Both the position numbers and the translations under genes were made by a program. Under the pieces are notes generated by a model that was given only the letters and a program-made list of their open reading frames with translations, searched no databases and was not told the origin of the DNA. From positions 20,980 to 84,979 of the forward strand of contig JAHIUA010000036.1 of NCBI GenBank assembly GCA_018817385.1: a DNA stretch of 64,000 bases. Direction: 5' to 3'. Shown piece by piece: positions 24,004-30,545 of the stretch (position 1 is the stretch's first letter; the number at the start of each line of letters is the position of its first letter). The DNA is from Pseudomonadota bacterium (GTDB lineage Bacteria; Desulfobacterota; Desulfobulbia; Desulfobulbales; Desulfocapsaceae).

Positions 24004-25137
24004 ATGCAAAGAGACTATTACGAAATACTCTCTGTGAGTAGGAATGCAGATGGTAGTGAAATAAAGAAGAGTTACCGTAAGCTTGCCATGAAATATCATC
24101 CGGATCGGAATCCGGATGATAAAGAGGCTGAATCAGTCTTTAAAGAGTGTACAGAGGCTTACGAGGTTCTTGGCGATCCCAAAAAGAGACAGATTTATGA
24201 TACATACGGTCATGAAGGACTGAAAAACAGCGGCTATCAAGGTCCAGGGAATTTCGAGGACATGTTTTCCGGCCTTGGCGACCTTTTTGGCGATCTCTTT
24301 GGTGGAGGTGGAAGGGGGCGTTCTCGTCGTGGTGGTCCTCAGCCTGGCAATGATCTTCGCTATGATATGGAAATCACCTTCATGGAGGCCATGCGGGGCG
24401 TAGCCAAAGAGGTGACCATCAAACGACGTGATACTTGTTGGACATGCGAGGGCAACGGCTGTCGTCCTGGATATAAACGAGAGACCTGTCCCAGTTGTCA
24501 TGGCCGAGGTCAGGTGATTCGTTCTCAGGGTTTTTTCCAGGTCTCTTCAACCTGTCCCCAATGTCATGGTGAAGGTGAAATAGTAACAGAACCCTGCCAT
24601 GACTGCGCCGGGAGTGGCTTGGTGGAGAAGAGGAAAAAGGTCTCTCTCAAGATTCCGGCAGGTGTCGACACCGGTGCCCAGATGCGCCTGCGAGGTGAGG
24701 GGGAAGGTGGACGACGGGGCGGTCCTCCAGGAGACCTTTATGTGGTTATCCATGTTCAGGAGCATGAGTTTTTTAAGCGCGAGGGAGAGACGATTTACTG
24801 TCAGTTCCCTGTTTCCATGGTTCAGGCAGCCCTGGGTTGTAAGGTTGATGTTCCTACAATCTATGGGAAAAAAAAGTTATCTATTCCGGCAGGCAGTCAG
24901 TCTGGAGAAATATTTACCCTGAAAAAACAAGGGGTAACCAGTCTGCGTGGCGGAAATGTTGGAAACATGGTTGTGCAACTGCAGGTAAAAACCCCGACCG
25001 GCCTCTGTGATGAACAGAAAAAAGTCTTAGAAAATTTTGATGAGCTTTGCCATAAACATGGTCAGCATGAGGAGCAGGAAGGTTTTTTTTCCAGGCTCTA
25101 CCATGAAGTGATTGGAAAGAAAGGAAAAGAGAGCTAA
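24004..25137 (+). CDS. dnaJ: Chaperone DnaJ
   Basis: 377 aa. J domain at residues 4-70 with the HPD tripeptide ([10 protein letters not shown]), a Gly/Phe-rich region (~75-115), and a zinc-finger domain with four CxxCxGxG units: [24 protein letters not shown] and CHDCAGSG. The C-terminal substrate-binding domain follows ([18 protein letters not shown]). It stimulates the ATPase of DnaK. dnaK is not in the window, so this may be one of several DnaJ copies or separated from dnaK. The AGGGTAGG ribosome site is good. Confidence 0.96.
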
Positions 25138-25177
25138 GAAGGTTCTTCACGGCCTCAATGTTTCTCTATATGAAACT

Positions 25178-25675
25178 ATGACTGAAAAACAAAATAGCAA
25201 AGGATTTACCCATTTTGATGCTGACGGCAATGCCATAATGGTCGATGTCAGTAAGAAAAATGAGACGGAGCGTGTAGCAACGGCCAGTGGTCGTATCACT
25301 CTGTCTGAAGAGGCCTATGACCTGGTGAAAAGTGGCTCTATGGCCAAGGGGGATGTCTTGGGAGTTGCGCGAGTGGCTGGTATTATGGCCGCCAAAAAGG
25401 TCGACAATCTCATTCCCCTGTGCCATCCTCTCCTCATCAGCAAGATTAGTGTTGATTTTGTCTATTGCGATGAGCAAAATCAGATTGAGATCCTTGCTAC
25501 GGTTGGTATAACTGGTAAGACAGGGGTGGAGATGGAAGCCTTGACAGCTGTCTCAGTTGCGGCATTGACCATTTATGATATGTGTAAGGCCGTTGATAAG
25601 GCTATGGTTATAAGTGATATTTGTTTGCAGAAAAAGACTGGAGGAAAAAGCGGAACCTTTATTCGACCTGAATAA
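25178..25675 (+). CDS. moaC: Cyclic pyranopterin monophosphate synthase MoaC
   Basis: 165 aa from the ATG at 25178; the track start at 25112 lies in the end of dnaJ and its N-terminal extension is unlike MoaC. It makes cyclic pyranopterin monophosphate in molybdenum cofactor synthesis, after MoaA. Signatures: [34 protein letters not shown] (substrate site), [26 protein letters not shown] and the catalytic KAVDKAMVI region. No ribosome site is obvious. Other moa genes are not adjacent. Confidence 0.96.
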
Positions 25676-25721
25676 TAACCGTCAATCTATAGAGTAATCT
25701 ACTTAAGTCAAGAGGATTTTG

Positions 25722-26084
25722 ATGGAGCAGAACGTACTGGATAACTTTAAGAAGCAGCTTGAGCAAAAACGGGAAGATATCCTGAAAGGTGCAGATAGGA
25801 CACTCTCTGAATTGACAGATCAGCATGGGAATATTCCTGACCCCAATGATCGTGCCACTGCAGAATCTGATCGTAATTTTGAGTTGCGTATTCGCAATCG
25901 TGAGAGGAAATTATTCGCTAAGATTGAAGCTGCCCTGCAAAGGATAGAAGATGGAGAGTATGGCGAATGTACAAGTTGCGGAGAGCTTATTGGCCTAAAA
26001 CGGCTTGAGGCCAGGCCGGTCACGACCCTTTGTATCGAGTGTAAAACGCTCCAGGAATCAAAGGAAAAATCTATTGGGAAGTGA
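25722..26084 (+). CDS. dksA: DksA/TraR-family RNA polymerase-binding protein
   Basis: 120 aa from the ATG at 25722, with AGAGGA upstream. It has an N-terminal coiled-coil (NFKKQLEQKREDILKGAD), an acidic tip region (DPNDRATAESDRN), and a four-Cys zinc finger (CTSCGELIGLKRLEARPVTTLCIECK). DksA enters the RNA polymerase secondary channel and, with ppGpp, adjusts transcription in stress. The tip reads 'DPNDRATAESD'; the family often has DxxDxA, and here both acidic positions look present. The gene ends just before galT (GTGA overlap region). Confidence 0.93.
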   Translation: MEQNVLDNFKKQLEQKREDILKGADRTLSELTDQHGNIPDPNDRATAESDRNFELRIRNRERKLFAKIEAALQRIEDGEYGECTSCGELIGLKRLEARPVTTLCIECKTLQESKEKSIGK

Positions 26085-26089
26085 GGCAA

Positions 26090-27097
26090 ATGCCTGAATT
26101 AAGAAAAGATCCTGTCCTTGGTCGTTGGATTATTATTTCCAGGGAGCGGGGAAAACGACCCTCTGATTTTGTTATTGCCGAGGCACCTACTATCGGAGGC
26201 TTCTGCCCCCTTTGTCCCGGCAATGAAAACACCACGCCTCATGAGGTTCTTGCCTATGGAAGGGAGGGCGGTGTCCCTAATTCACCTGGCTGGAAGGTTC
26301 GCGTGGTTCCCAACAAGTATCCGGCTCTGGTCATTGAAGGTGATCTCAACCGTGAGGCGGAGGGGTTGTATGACAAAATGAACGGTATTGGTGCCCATGA
26401 GGTCATTATCGAAAGTCCACGACACGATGACACCTTCGCCGATTTACCGCCTGAACACATGGTCCTGATATTTCTGGCATTCCAAAATCGCATTTGTGAT
26501 CTGGAACATGATGACCGGTTTCGTTACGTCCTCGTGTTTAAAAATTTCGGAAAGGCCGCCGGTGCATCCTTAGAGCATTCACATTCCCAGCTGGTGGCTT
26601 TGCCCGTCCTGCCTCGAAAAATTTATTCGGAGCTCGCCGGCTCCTCTACTTATTTTAATTATAAGGAACGTTGTGTTTACTGCGATATTATTCATCAGGA
26701 GTTGAAGCAGGATGTTCGGGTGGTGTGTAAGAATGATTATTTTATCACTATTACCCCCTTTGCTCCCCGAACTCCTTTTGAGATGTGGATTCTTCCTATC
26801 AAGCACTCATCAGCTTACCACGAGCAGAGTTATGAGCAAATGATTGCCCTGGCTGAGATCTTTTCAGAGAGTCTCTGTCGTCTCGATGCCTGCATCCCCA
26901 ATGTCCCTTATAATTTTGTTTTGCATACCCAGCCCCTGCGTTCCAAATCCTTGGAACACTTTCACTGGCATTTCGAAATTGTACCGAAACTCACTTCCAT
27001 TGCAGGGTTTGAATGGGGATCAGGTTTTTATATTAATCCCATGCCTCCAGAAGAAGCGGCTACCTATCTGCGTGATTCTCTGGAACGAATATCATAG
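26090..27097 (+). CDS. galT: Galactose-1-phosphate uridylyltransferase (GalT family)
   Basis: 335 aa from the ATG at 26090. Exchanges UMP between UDP-glucose and galactose-1-phosphate. The zinc ligands CPLC (~43-46), the nucleotide signature, and the catalytic HSHSQ (His-x-His-x-Gln, ~165) are visible, then HFHWHFEIVPK near the C-terminus. The start overlaps the GAGG ribosome site closely; a GTG at 26081 is an alternative. Some GalT-like proteins are ADP-glucose phosphorylases, so substrate is not certain. galK and galE are not adjacent. The response-regulator gene follows after 8 bases. Confidence 0.9.
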   Translation: MPELRKDPVLGRWIIISRERGKRPSDFVIAEAPTIGGFCPLCPGNENTTPHEVLAYGREGGVPNSPGWKVRVVPNKYPALVIEGDLNREAEGLYDKMNGIGAHEVIIESPRHDDTFADLPPEHMVLIFLAFQNRICDLEHDDRFRYVLVFKNFGKAAGASLEHSHSQLVALPVLPRKIYSELAGSSTYFNYKERCVYCDIIHQELKQDVRVVCKNDYFITITPFAPRTPFEMWILPIKHSSAYHEQSYEQMIALAEIFSESLCRLDACIPNVPYNFVLHTQPLRSKSLEHFHWHFEIVPKLTSIAGFEWGSGFYINPMPPEEAATYLRDSLERIS

Positions 27098-27105
27098 AGG
27101 GCCCT

Positions 27106-27456
27106 ATGAAGAAAATTTTACTTGTTGACGATGAAGAAGGTATCCAGATGCTCTATCGAGAGGAGCTGGAAGAAGAGGGATATGAGGTGATTTCTGCCTA
27201 CACCGGTGAGGAGGGCCTTGAAAAATTCAAGGCTGAGTCCCCGGATCTCGTTATTCTTGATATTCAAATGCCCGGGATCAACGGAATAGAAACCCTGCGG
27301 CAGATGAAGATGGAAAACCCGAAGCTTCCTGTCATACTCAGTTCTGCCTATAATGAGTATAAGCAGGATCTCGGCGCCTGGGCTTCTGATGAGTATGTGG
27401 TCAAATCATCCAACATCAATGAGTTGAAACAAGCTGTTCGCAAACATCTGGCATAG
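27106..27456 (+). CDS. Single-domain (CheY-like) response regulator
   Basis: 116 aa, a receiver domain only. Acidic pocket DDEE near the N-terminus, phospho-acceptor Asp in VILDIQMPGING (~52), the Ser switch (VILSSAY) and the Lys in YVVKSSN are all present. With no output domain it must act through protein contact, or as a phosphate relay. No histidine kinase is nearby. It starts 8 bases after galT with a GAGGG site, so it is likely in the same transcript. Confidence 0.92.
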   Translation: MKKILLVDDEEGIQMLYREELEEEGYEVISAYTGEEGLEKFKAESPDLVILDIQMPGINGIETLRQMKMENPKLPVILSSAYNEYKQDLGAWASDEYVVKSSNINELKQAVRKHLA

Positions 27457-27641
27457 TCATCTGACATTGTCCAGACTTTTGTGATCCGTTTCCAGGTCAA
27501 CGTCCAGCGCTTTTCTGAAAAGGCTGAATTGAAGATGTTGATGCAGGGTTTCTCTGCTCTGGCTACCTTGTTGATTATTCTGGACAAAGGATGCATTTTG
27601 CCTAGCACTCACTCATTCTCCACATTCTCCCTATTCTCACT

Positions 27642-28370
27642 ATGAAAGACATCCAGAACCAGGAGGACCACCGGCGTATTAATATCAAGAAGGTGGGGGT
27701 CAAGACCATTTCCTATCCTATCACTGTCCTTGATAAGGCCCGCTCGAAGCAGCACACCATAGCGACTGTTAATATGTATGTAAATCTGCCTCATCATTTC
27801 AAGGGCACCCATATGAGCCGGTTTGTTGAGATTCTTAACCGTTTTCATGGAGCCATTGATATCAGCAACTTCCATTATATATTGGAGGAGATGAAGGATA
27901 AACTTGAGGCAGAGGCGGCCCATATCGAGATGTCTTTTGCCTATTTTCTCCCTGCCAAGGAAGGTCTTGAAACTCTGAAGAGCAGTCGTTATGAATGCAG
28001 TATGCATGGTTCTTTGGAAGAAGCTAATGAGCTTGAAGTTCAGGTTATTGTTCCTGTCTCTCTTCCTCTTGCGGAAAAGAGAGGACAGGGGCTGCCTCGT
28101 TCTCTCGGAGATTGGGGGCGAGCTCTGGTATCTGTTAAGTTTAGAAACTTTCTCTGGATTGAGGACCTGATTTTTCTCATTAAAGACGCCATTGACTGGG
28201 AACAGCACAACGTACCCAGCCATGGAGAGAATAGCCTTTCTGTGGAATCCCTCATTCGTAGAATTGCCAAGAGCCTGAAGGAAGAGGAGACCATCAAGTG
28301 GTTTTCTGTGAAAGTTGAAAATCTTGCTGAGGGATATTCAACCTTTGCCATTATGGAGTCTGGCTCATAA
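27642..28370 (+). CDS. FolE2-family (GTP cyclohydrolase IB) protein lacking canonical metal ligands
   Basis: 242 aa. The N-terminal half is a clear FolE2 match (DIQNQEDHRRINIKKVGVK, NLPHHFKGTHMSRFVEIL). FolE2 normally makes dihydroneopterin triphosphate from GTP. But the LCPCSKxIS...GAHNQR segment, which holds a Cys and a His metal ligand, is replaced here by VPVSLPLAEKRGQGLPRSL and GDWGRA. The C-terminal ESIHxHxA ligands are replaced by ENLAEGYSTFA. Only the Glu of WIEDL remains. It may be an inactive or re-purposed paralog. It is alone between the receiver gene and glyS, with a 185-base gap upstream, and no clear ribosome site. Confidence 0.85.
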   Translation: MKDIQNQEDHRRINIKKVGVKTISYPITVLDKARSKQHTIATVNMYVNLPHHFKGTHMSRFVEILNRFHGAIDISNFHYILEEMKDKLEAEAAHIEMSFAYFLPAKEGLETLKSSRYECSMHGSLEEANELEVQVIVPVSLPLAEKRGQGLPRSLGDWGRALVSVKFRNFLWIEDLIFLIKDAIDWEQHNVPSHGENSLSVESLIRRIAKSLKEEETIKWFSVKVENLAEGYSTFAIMESGS

Positions 28371-28469
28371 GAGAAAGAATACAGGATTGAATAGAGGGTA
28401 CCTCAACTAATATCGCCGCCAAGTTTAGCCTGGCTACACTTTTCTTTATAACATCTAATTGATACCATT

Positions 28470-30545
28470 ATGTCTGAACTACTTTTTGAGATTGGAACTG
28501 AAGAACTTCCTGCAGGGTTTCAGAAACCGGCACTTGACCAACTAAAGTCGAACTTTATCAGTCGTGCAAAAGAGCTTGATCTGAGCCATGGTTCTGTTGT
28601 GACCATTGGGACTCCCCGTCGCCTGGCCCTGTTGGTTGAAGAGCTAGCTGACAGGCAACCGGATTCTCGTGAAGAGGTCATGGGGCCATCAAAAAAGGCC
28701 GGATTTGATAAAGAGGGAAAGCCAACCAAGGCTGCCATGGGTTTTGCCCGTTCCAAAGGGGCGGAAGTTTCTCAACTGCAGATCGTAAATACAGAAAAAG
28801 GGGAATACCTGATGCTCGTTCAAGAGCGTAAGGGGGTGGCCACGGCAGAACTGTTGCCTGGACTTCTGACAGACTTGATGCAAGGTTTCTCTTTTGCCAA
28901 GTCCATGCATTGGGGCGCCCAAACCTATACCTTTGCCCGGCCTATCCAGTGGATTGTCGCCCTCTATGAGAGAGAGGTTATACCGTTTGTCTATCAAGGG
29001 ATGAGTGCAGGCAGGGTCACCAGAGGTCACCGTTTTATGGCAAATGGCGCCCTTGAGATAAAAGGAATCGCAGAGTATCGCCAATGTCTTCAGGATGCGC
29101 ATGTTTTGGTAGATCCTGAAGAGCGTCGGAGAGCCGTATTGGTAGAGATAGAAAAGGCTGCGGCGGCTCGTCTGGACCCGGCCCATGCACATGTCGCTGT
29201 TGATGAAGACCTTGTCGAGACGGTATGTAACCTGGTGGAGCAACCCTTTGGAGTCTGTGGCAGTTTCGATGAGCGCTTTCTCCAGCTTCCCGATGAGGCC
29301 CTCATCACCTCTATGCGTGAGCATCAAAAATATTTTCCTGTTGTGGATAATGATGAGAAACTGCTCCCCTACTTTGTGGCTGTCAATAATACCAAAGTGA
29401 AGGATCTGGCCCTGACTCGAACCGGCCATGAACGAGTTCTGAGAGCACGGCTGGAAGATGCCTATTTCTTTTTTGGTGCAGATAAAAAGACCAAACTTGA
29501 TGATCGATATGAGGCTCTTACCGGTATCATTTTTCAGGCAAAACTGGGGACTATGCTTGAAAAAAGCGAGCGTATTATTAAGTTGGCCAGGCTGCTCGCA
29601 GAGAAATTTATCCCTGAAGCCGTTGCTGAGGCCTGCCGGGCGGCACGTTTGTGTAAAACAGACCTGTTAACCGATATGGTAGGCGAATTTCCTTCTCTGC
29701 AAGGGAATATGGGCTGTGCCTATGCCCTCCATGACGGAGAATCTTCGGCCGTGGCCCAGGCCATCCATGAACATTATCTCCCTAAAAGGGCGGGAGCGGA
29801 ACTCCCCTCTTCTGCCCTGGGCGCAGTTGTTGGCCTCGCCGATCGAGTCGATACGCTGTGCGGTTGTTTCGGCATCGGACAAGTCCCTACTGGTACAACT
29901 GATCCTTTTGGCCTGCGCAGGATAGCCCTGGCCATCCTCCATATCCTCGAACATTTTGACTGGAGTCTTTCTCTGCGCGAGGTGGTGCATAAATCGCTCT
30001 CCCTTTACGGTGATAAGGTCAATGGCAGCAGTGATACTGTGGAACAGGTGCTTGCCTTCATTCGTGGTCGTTTTGTCAATGATCAGCTTGCTGCAGGAGT
30101 GGATGGAGAAGCCGTGGAGGCTGTGACTTCGGTTCATTTTGATGATGTGAACGATTCACTGCAGAAAATACAGTCTCTGGTCGAGATCCGCGGTGAGGAG
30201 GCTTTTTCTCTGCTGGCTGCCTCTTTTAAACGTATTCGCAATATCATCAAAGAGAATACCGAGACAGCGGTGGATGATTTGCTCCTCAAGGAACCTGCAG
30301 AAAAAGAGCTGGCAGCTGTCTGTAAGGATGTCTCTGCTGCGGTTCTTCCTCTCCTTGAGAAACGCGATTACAGTGGAGCACTTTCAGCCATGTTGGCTCT
30401 CAAGGGTCCGGTGGATGCCTTTTTTAATGAGGTAATGGTTATGGACGAGGACCCTGCAGTACGGGCCAATCGACTGAATCTTCTCACCGCAATTTCAACC
30501 CTTTTTCTCAGGGTAGGGGATATTTCAAAGATGCAGAGGAGTTGA
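28470..30545 (+). CDS. glyS: Glycyl-tRNA synthetase, beta subunit
   Basis: 691 aa, normal length for the beta chain of the alpha2-beta2 bacterial enzyme. Starts MSELLFEIGTEELPAGF, then TPRRLALLVEEL, an EVMGPSKKAGFD stretch, and MREHQKYFPV in the HD-like central part. The C-terminal portion contains the anticodon-binding DALR-like helix bundle. The beta subunit needs GlyQ (alpha, catalytic). GlyQ is usually encoded just upstream, but here the upstream gene is the FolE2-like one, so glyQ must lie elsewhere. YceH follows after 16 bases. Confidence 0.97.
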   Translation: MSELLFEIGTEELPAGFQKPALDQLKSNFISRAKELDLSHGSVVTIGTPRRLALLVEELADRQPDSREEVMGPSKKAGFDKEGKPTKAAMGFARSKGAEVSQLQIVNTEKGEYLMLVQERKGVATAELLPGLLTDLMQGFSFAKSMHWGAQTYTFARPIQWIVALYEREVIPFVYQGMSAGRVTRGHRFMANGALEIKGIAEYRQCLQDAHVLVDPEERRRAVLVEIEKAAAARLDPAHAHVAVDEDLVETVCNLVEQPFGVCGSFDERFLQLPDEALITSMREHQKYFPVVDNDEKLLPYFVAVNNTKVKDLALTRTGHERVLRARLEDAYFFFGADKKTKLDDRYEALTGIIFQAKLGTMLEKSERIIKLARLLAEKFIPEAVAEACRAARLCKTDLLTDMVGEFPSLQGNMGCAYALHDGESSAVAQAIHEHYLPKRAGAELPSSALGAVVGLADRVDTLCGCFGIGQVPTGTTDPFGLRRIALAILHILEHFDWSLSLREVVHKSLSLYGDKVNGSSDTVEQVLAFIRGRFVNDQLAAGVDGEAVEAVTSVHFDDVNDSLQKIQSLVEIRGEEAFSLLAASFKRIRNIIKENTETAVDDLLLKEPAEKELAAVCKDVSAAVLPLLEKRDYSGALSAMLALKGPVDAFFNEVMVMDEDPAVRANRLNLLTAISTLFLRVGDISKMQRS

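Follow-up and report, generated by a model that had tools for sequence, protein, structure and literature searches.

The open reading frame at positions 27642-28370 (+ strand) of the window, as the whole stretch of 64,000 nucleotides analysed here is called, encodes a FolE2 homologue, hereafter called P, which lacks every metal ligand of the family. It is very likely that P is one half of an obligate heteromeric GTP cyclohydrolase IB, in which the N-terminal T-fold of P and the C-terminal T-fold of a second FolE2-like protein of the same genome, hereafter called C, form the active site. Each copy appears to retain the portion of the active site which is missing from its counterpart, and one working enzyme would probably require the two together. 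The original cyclohydrolase activity most likely persists in a P:C complex; the physical association of P with C, the active site formed in trans and its catalysis are what we infer from the evidence below.

The P reading frame corresponds exactly to 27642-28370, with an ATG start, 242 predicted amino acids and no internal stops, and the MKDIQ start of the protein is kept among homologues. Its assignment to the FolE2 family in the first-pass annotation is supported by the match to PF02649 (152.5 bits, above the curated cut-off of 25, E 2e-44) and by comparison with solved structures, among which FolE2 was closest (2r5r, E 1e-40). The AlphaFold model of P (pLDDT 81.6) has a bimodular T-fold, and its top Foldseek matches were all FolE2. 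The NCBIfam FolE2 equivalog cut-off is not reached by P (127.2 vs 215 bits). An identity as MptA was rejected on the scores with TIGR00294 and NF010204 (44.8 of 220 and 19.3 of 468 bits, respectively). The closest named relative is a Desulfocapsa protein with 79 % identity. The N-terminal part of the active site is retained in P: the motif KGTHMSRF (residues 54-61, 27801-27824, + strand), at the start of helix alpha1 in the N-terminal T-fold, is invariant in normal FolE2, 100 % conserved in P-type proteins and missing from every C-type protein. Upstream of P lies a gene for a receiver-only response regulator (27106-27456, + strand), kept in 21 of 29 loci, and downstream lies glyS (28470-30545, + strand), kept in 26 of the 29 class loci checked. 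The run of dnaJ, moaC, dksA, a galT-like gene, the response regulator, P and glyS (24004-30545 of the window) is preserved over much of the class.

P was aligned with the second copy of the genome and with the FolE2 of Neisseria gonorrhoeae, which is the source of the numbering. The positions C147, H159, E201 and H246, which we take to be the metal ligands of the N. gonorrhoeae enzyme, correspond to L143, L155 and two deletions in P. The segment VPVSLPLAEK (28050-28079, + strand) replaces the lost LCPCSK segment with the metal/catalytic Cys, L143 being the equivalent of Cys147, and GDWGR (28107-28121, + strand) stands where AHNQR should be. The LLKRPDEKYVTE segment with the Glu ligand is deleted in the region 28188-28238 (+ strand), and ENLAEGYSTFA (28317-28349, + strand) replaces ESFESIHKHSAYA, with deletion of the His ligand. 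The three altered segments named earlier (VPVSLPLAEK, GDWGRA and ENLAEGYSTFA) were correct by alignment, and the ligand loss was confirmed and found to be larger than first noted. The metal site is lost, as had been stated, but the deletion of KRPDEKYVTE with its Glu ligand had been overlooked, and ESIHxH, which had been listed as holding a ligand His pair, presumably provides only one. No conserved cluster of Cys, His or Glu was found when the C-terminal half of P was scanned for ligands relocated elsewhere in the protein. The Glu position of SVE (residues 200-202, 28239-28247, + strand), which we assume to be the purine anchor of the family, is occupied by Glu in 98 % of P-type proteins, and GxWG itself is 98-99 % conserved among them.

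GAHNQR, KRxDE and ESIHxH were missing in 114 of 114 P-type ORFs, and KGTHMSRF was kept in all. The loss of the ligands is not due to chance or assembly error, since it is common to all 114 ORFs and the dN/dS of P in close relatives was 0.05-0.09 (0.011-0.021 for the N-terminal half and 0.09-0.16 for the C-terminal half). The absence of every metal ligand could by itself suggest that P is a pseudogene in decay or the product of faulty assembly, but the chance of this is practically nil, and the explanation was rejected because P is intact in 95 distinct sequences, from nearly all of the 69 genera sampled, at the dN/dS given above. The earlier description of the gene as intact, without stops and maintained was borne out by the same data.

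The only other PF02649 gene in the genome, C (G000:C15:113622-114338), is located on another contig than P. It retains LCPCSK, GAHNQR, KRPDEKYVTE and ESIHKH, and it reaches the NCBIfam FolE2 equivalog cut-off (237 vs 215 bits). In the N-terminal half of C, RESCVHIFTSVLN is found at the place of KGTHMSRFVEILN of normal FolE2, and 12-13 residues are missing from its start, among them the conserved D.Q and D.R. All four ligand motifs were found in 130 of 130 C-type ORFs and KGTHMSRF in none. In 97 % of the C-type proteins, Cys occupies the position of the KGTHMSRF His (residue 45 of L053), a conservation that is surprising at a site expected to be dead. C lies close to purH-, purN- and metF-like genes in the window genome and in several relatives, according to a reading of the ORF sequences, and the P locus (moaC, dksA, galT and glyS) is unlike the C locus. 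The two genes lie on separate contigs here and widely apart in single-contig genomes, and are not adjacent. Type IA FolE (PF01227) was found neither in the window genome (0 of 1) nor in a set of 50 genomes (0 of 50), and in the absence of a PF01227 match this enzyme was rejected as a backup. A normal second FolE2 that would render P redundant was also rejected, since C is itself incomplete. The search for a second, canonical folE or folE2, which had been proposed in the first-pass annotation, thus yielded a folE2 with all ligands, but one that lacks the N-terminal motif, and no type IA FolE. Of the suggestion that P had lost cyclohydrolase activity or gained a new role, the loss of the metal site stands and P is probably inactive by itself; because the motif is lost in C and type IA FolE is absent, half of a two-gene cyclohydrolase fits better.

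All five motifs were present in 51 of 52 normal FolE2-like ORFs, compared with four in the 130 C-type ORFs and KGTHMSRF without the ligand motifs in the 114 P-type ORFs. The complementary loss was measured with 95 P, 86 C and 51 normal sequences over the 85 columns whose conservation in normal FolE2 is 94 % or higher. At 50 % retention, 21 columns were lost in C only, 34 in P only, 1 in both and 29 in neither. The one-sided Fisher p value was 1.9e-5 (1.1e-7 at 90 % retention), both values being only indicative since the columns are not independent. Nineteen of the C-only losses were at positions 13-73 of L207 and the others at 234 and 249, and all 34 P-only losses were at positions 115-258. 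P and C jointly carry nearly every conserved FolE2 residue. Within-type identity in the N- and C-terminal halves was 0.74 and 0.43 for P, 0.50 and 0.73 for C, and 0.63 and 0.63 for normal FolE2, a comparison which overlaps with the column test and partly restates the same fact. When the N-terminal half of P was joined in silico to the C-terminal half of C, the median score on the normal-FolE2 profile was 418 bits (43 pairs). Normal FolE2 (the training set of the profile) reached 461 bits, whereas C by itself had 324, P 219 and the reverse join 122.

Genomes of the same family (93) had nearly always exactly two PF02649 matches. The order sample consisted of 258 genomes from 69 genera and 15 families, the class search covering the identical 258 genomes, and the P-type and C-type profiles each matched nearly all of them. 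Both P and C were found in 52 of 52 genomes at least 98 % complete. Among the 253 genomes remaining when genus g38 was left out, 15 were without P and 28 without C, where incompleteness predicts 26 each, absence having been called from E-values and some of the absent genes being fragments at contig ends; no genome was without both. Outside the near-complete genomes, the missing P and C genes match assembly gaps and fit incompleteness. The named carriers (Desulfocapsa, Desulfobulbus, Desulfurivibrio, Desulfofustis and Candidatus Electrothrix) place the P/C group in the Desulfobulbales, class Desulfobulbia. HPPK (folK) was found in 14 of 14 genomes tested.

Genomes outside the class normally encode FolE2 in a single gene of full length. 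In 395 genomes over the phylum, approximately 312 of the 320 FolE2-bearing genomes outside the class had a best match with E <=1e-87, mostly single and full length where listed, whereas class members had two or three matches each, the best of them at 1e-64 to 1e-80. Of 20 outgroup genomes probed, 17 had one FolE2 and 3 had one together with a weak MptA-like match. C clusters with the full-length FolE2 of L128 and L142 with a support of 1.0; the deeper node, which bears on whether the duplication came before the split from their lineage, is weak (0.49). L128 (JAMOVF010000007.1) and L142 (JALVJO010000086.1) are normal full-length FolE2 from two deltaproteobacterial MAGs, and may be near the state before the split. 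Weak third PF02649 matches occur in other class members (e.g. G163:C1:943611-944396 and G186:C1:1550341-1551186) and also among the relatives of L128 and L142; they look MptA-like and were rejected as extra copies of P or C. A longer MptA-like protein in genome G008 (L063:4884-6359) has GVHMSRF, ACPC, SHNQR and GIHKH all in place, and its gene adjoins formylmethanofuran-dehydrogenase and tetrahydromethanopterin-type C1 genes. MptA (GTP cyclohydrolase IV) shares the Pfam family with P, and this third copy has both HMSRF and the ligand motifs.

In the favoured reading, a homomeric folE2 ancestor was duplicated by the time class Desulfobulbia arose, or earlier. The P copy would have kept the residues of the N-terminal T-fold (D.Q..D.R and FKGTHMSR) and lost the metal/Cys site of the C-terminal T-fold, and the C copy would have kept the C-terminal site (CPC, GAHNQR, KRPDEKYVTE and ESIHxH) and lost the N-terminal motif.

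The evolution of P and C is correlated beyond the species tree. Pairwise tree distances of P and C gave r 0.87 and, given glyS, a partial r of 0.78 (33 genomes), with 0.04 for the control of P against its neighbour galT given glyS (33 genomes), the P/C correlation being expressed as r alone. The class contains one genus, g38, without P and C, which instead carries a single full-length FolE2, complete in its motifs (four genomes with matches, 78-95 % complete: G164:C8:69635-70384, G166, G167 and G168; sequences L207-L210 and L307-L309). This FolE2 clusters with outgroup FolE2 in the tree and has unrelated gene neighbourhoods, and was therefore probably acquired by transfer, in place of P and C. 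A single gene substitutes for both in g38, which argues that P and C serve one function. P might alternatively have a separate new role, such as another pterin or GTP reaction or binding, apart from the activity of C, as its own conserved GxWG, the retained purine-anchor Glu and a locus (moaC, dksA, galT and glyS) unlike that of C could indicate. This is highly improbable, as the C-terminal half is the least conserved part of P (0.43), the rates of P and C co-vary, and g38 dropped the pair as a whole and carries a single normal FolE2.

T-fold enzymes bind their substrate between T-fold domains. By analogy with urate oxidase and from what is known of FolE2 structures, the FolE2 site is expected to be formed in trans, one chain supplying its C-terminal T-fold and the adjacent chain its N-terminal T-fold. 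Given such a site between chains, a P:C complex would have complete sites, from the C-terminal half of C and the N-terminal half of P, and inert sites, from the C-terminal half of P and the N-terminal half of C; the observed division of P and C would then be expected. Urate oxidase, also a bimodular T-fold, is the fold most similar to both models after FolE2 itself; in its site, alpha4 and the beta5-beta6 loop come from one chain and beta1/alpha1 from the other (PMC8199477). In the model of normal FolE2, KGTHMSRF runs into alpha1 (68-75), CPC...GAHNQR forms the beta5-beta6 loop (155-170), and E224, the purine-anchor Glu, opens the helix 223-235. By this analogy, the division between P and C follows the segments that make up the urate oxidase site. 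Urate oxidase resembles the proposed P:C enzyme in drawing its active site from two chains, with the C-terminal T-fold coming from one and the N-terminal T-fold from the other (PMC8199477), but it is homomeric and tied to FolE2 by fold only. In bimodular QueF the site is inside a single chain (PMC5372742). With a one-chain site of this kind neither P nor C would be functional and the class would have no GCYH-I despite the presence of folK in all 14 genomes, which makes the heteromer with a trans site the most economical reading.

Known GTP cyclohydrolase IB enzymes (FolE2, PF02649; N. gonorrhoeae 3d2o/5k95 and N. europaea 2r5r) have the family and the bimodular T-fold in common with P and C, but carry all motifs on one chain encoded by one gene, whereas here the motifs are split over two unlinked, incomplete genes. 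A literature search limited to open-licence papers gave no report of a heteromeric FolE2. The trypanosomatid deoxyhypusine synthase and AdoMetDC have full activity only with a dead paralogue (PMC3663545, PMC5201418). Following such prozymes or GFRP, C could be a sufficient cyclohydrolase which tolerates the loss of the N-terminal motif, and P a dead activator or regulator; C is above the NCBIfam FolE2 cut-off (237 vs 215 bits) with all ligands kept, and the prozymes are a precedent (PMC3663545). P is, however, most constrained at the motif missing from C (N-terminal half dN/dS 0.011-0.021, KGTHMSRF 100 %), a pure activator need not retain precisely the part that C has lost, and the co-occurrence of P and C looks obligate, which makes this explanation quite improbable. 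The prozymes resemble P and C in the duplication and the two impaired paralogues, their obligate active heteromer having been demonstrated experimentally and that of P and C being predicted. They are unrelated eukaryotic enzymes in which activation is mainly a structural or allosteric change, unlike the direct division of active-site residues predicted for P and C in a bacterial folate enzyme.

In the proposed P:C enzyme, the GxWG (28107-28121) and the purine-anchor Glu (28239-28247) of P hint at some remaining binding capacity of the dead interface. Since P keeps this Glu (98 %) and GxWG, and C has a near-invariant Cys (97 %), the inert interface between the C-terminal half of P and the N-terminal half of C could now be regulatory, through GTP/pterin feedback or redox/metal sensing, at sites that a homomeric FolE2 could not give up, although we consider this rather unlikely.

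GTP cyclohydrolase is the first enzyme of folate synthesis, and the class concerned consists of sulfur-cycling bacteria. If the heteromeric reading is true, the whole class, including Desulfocapsa, Desulfobulbus, cable bacteria and relatives, would make folate with a two-gene cyclohydrolase. Current family models would miss the case, as C passes as a complete FolE2 without half of its site and P resembles a dead duplicate, and 'pseudoenzyme' labels on enzymes with shared sites would require a check for a partner. The P/C pair would be an unusually clean natural division of the shared active site of a homomeric enzyme between two paralogues, with the loss traceable residue by residue against single-gene outgroups and one genus that is single-gene again, and it would open the trans architecture, as well as what the KGTHMSRF residues do, to direct tests.
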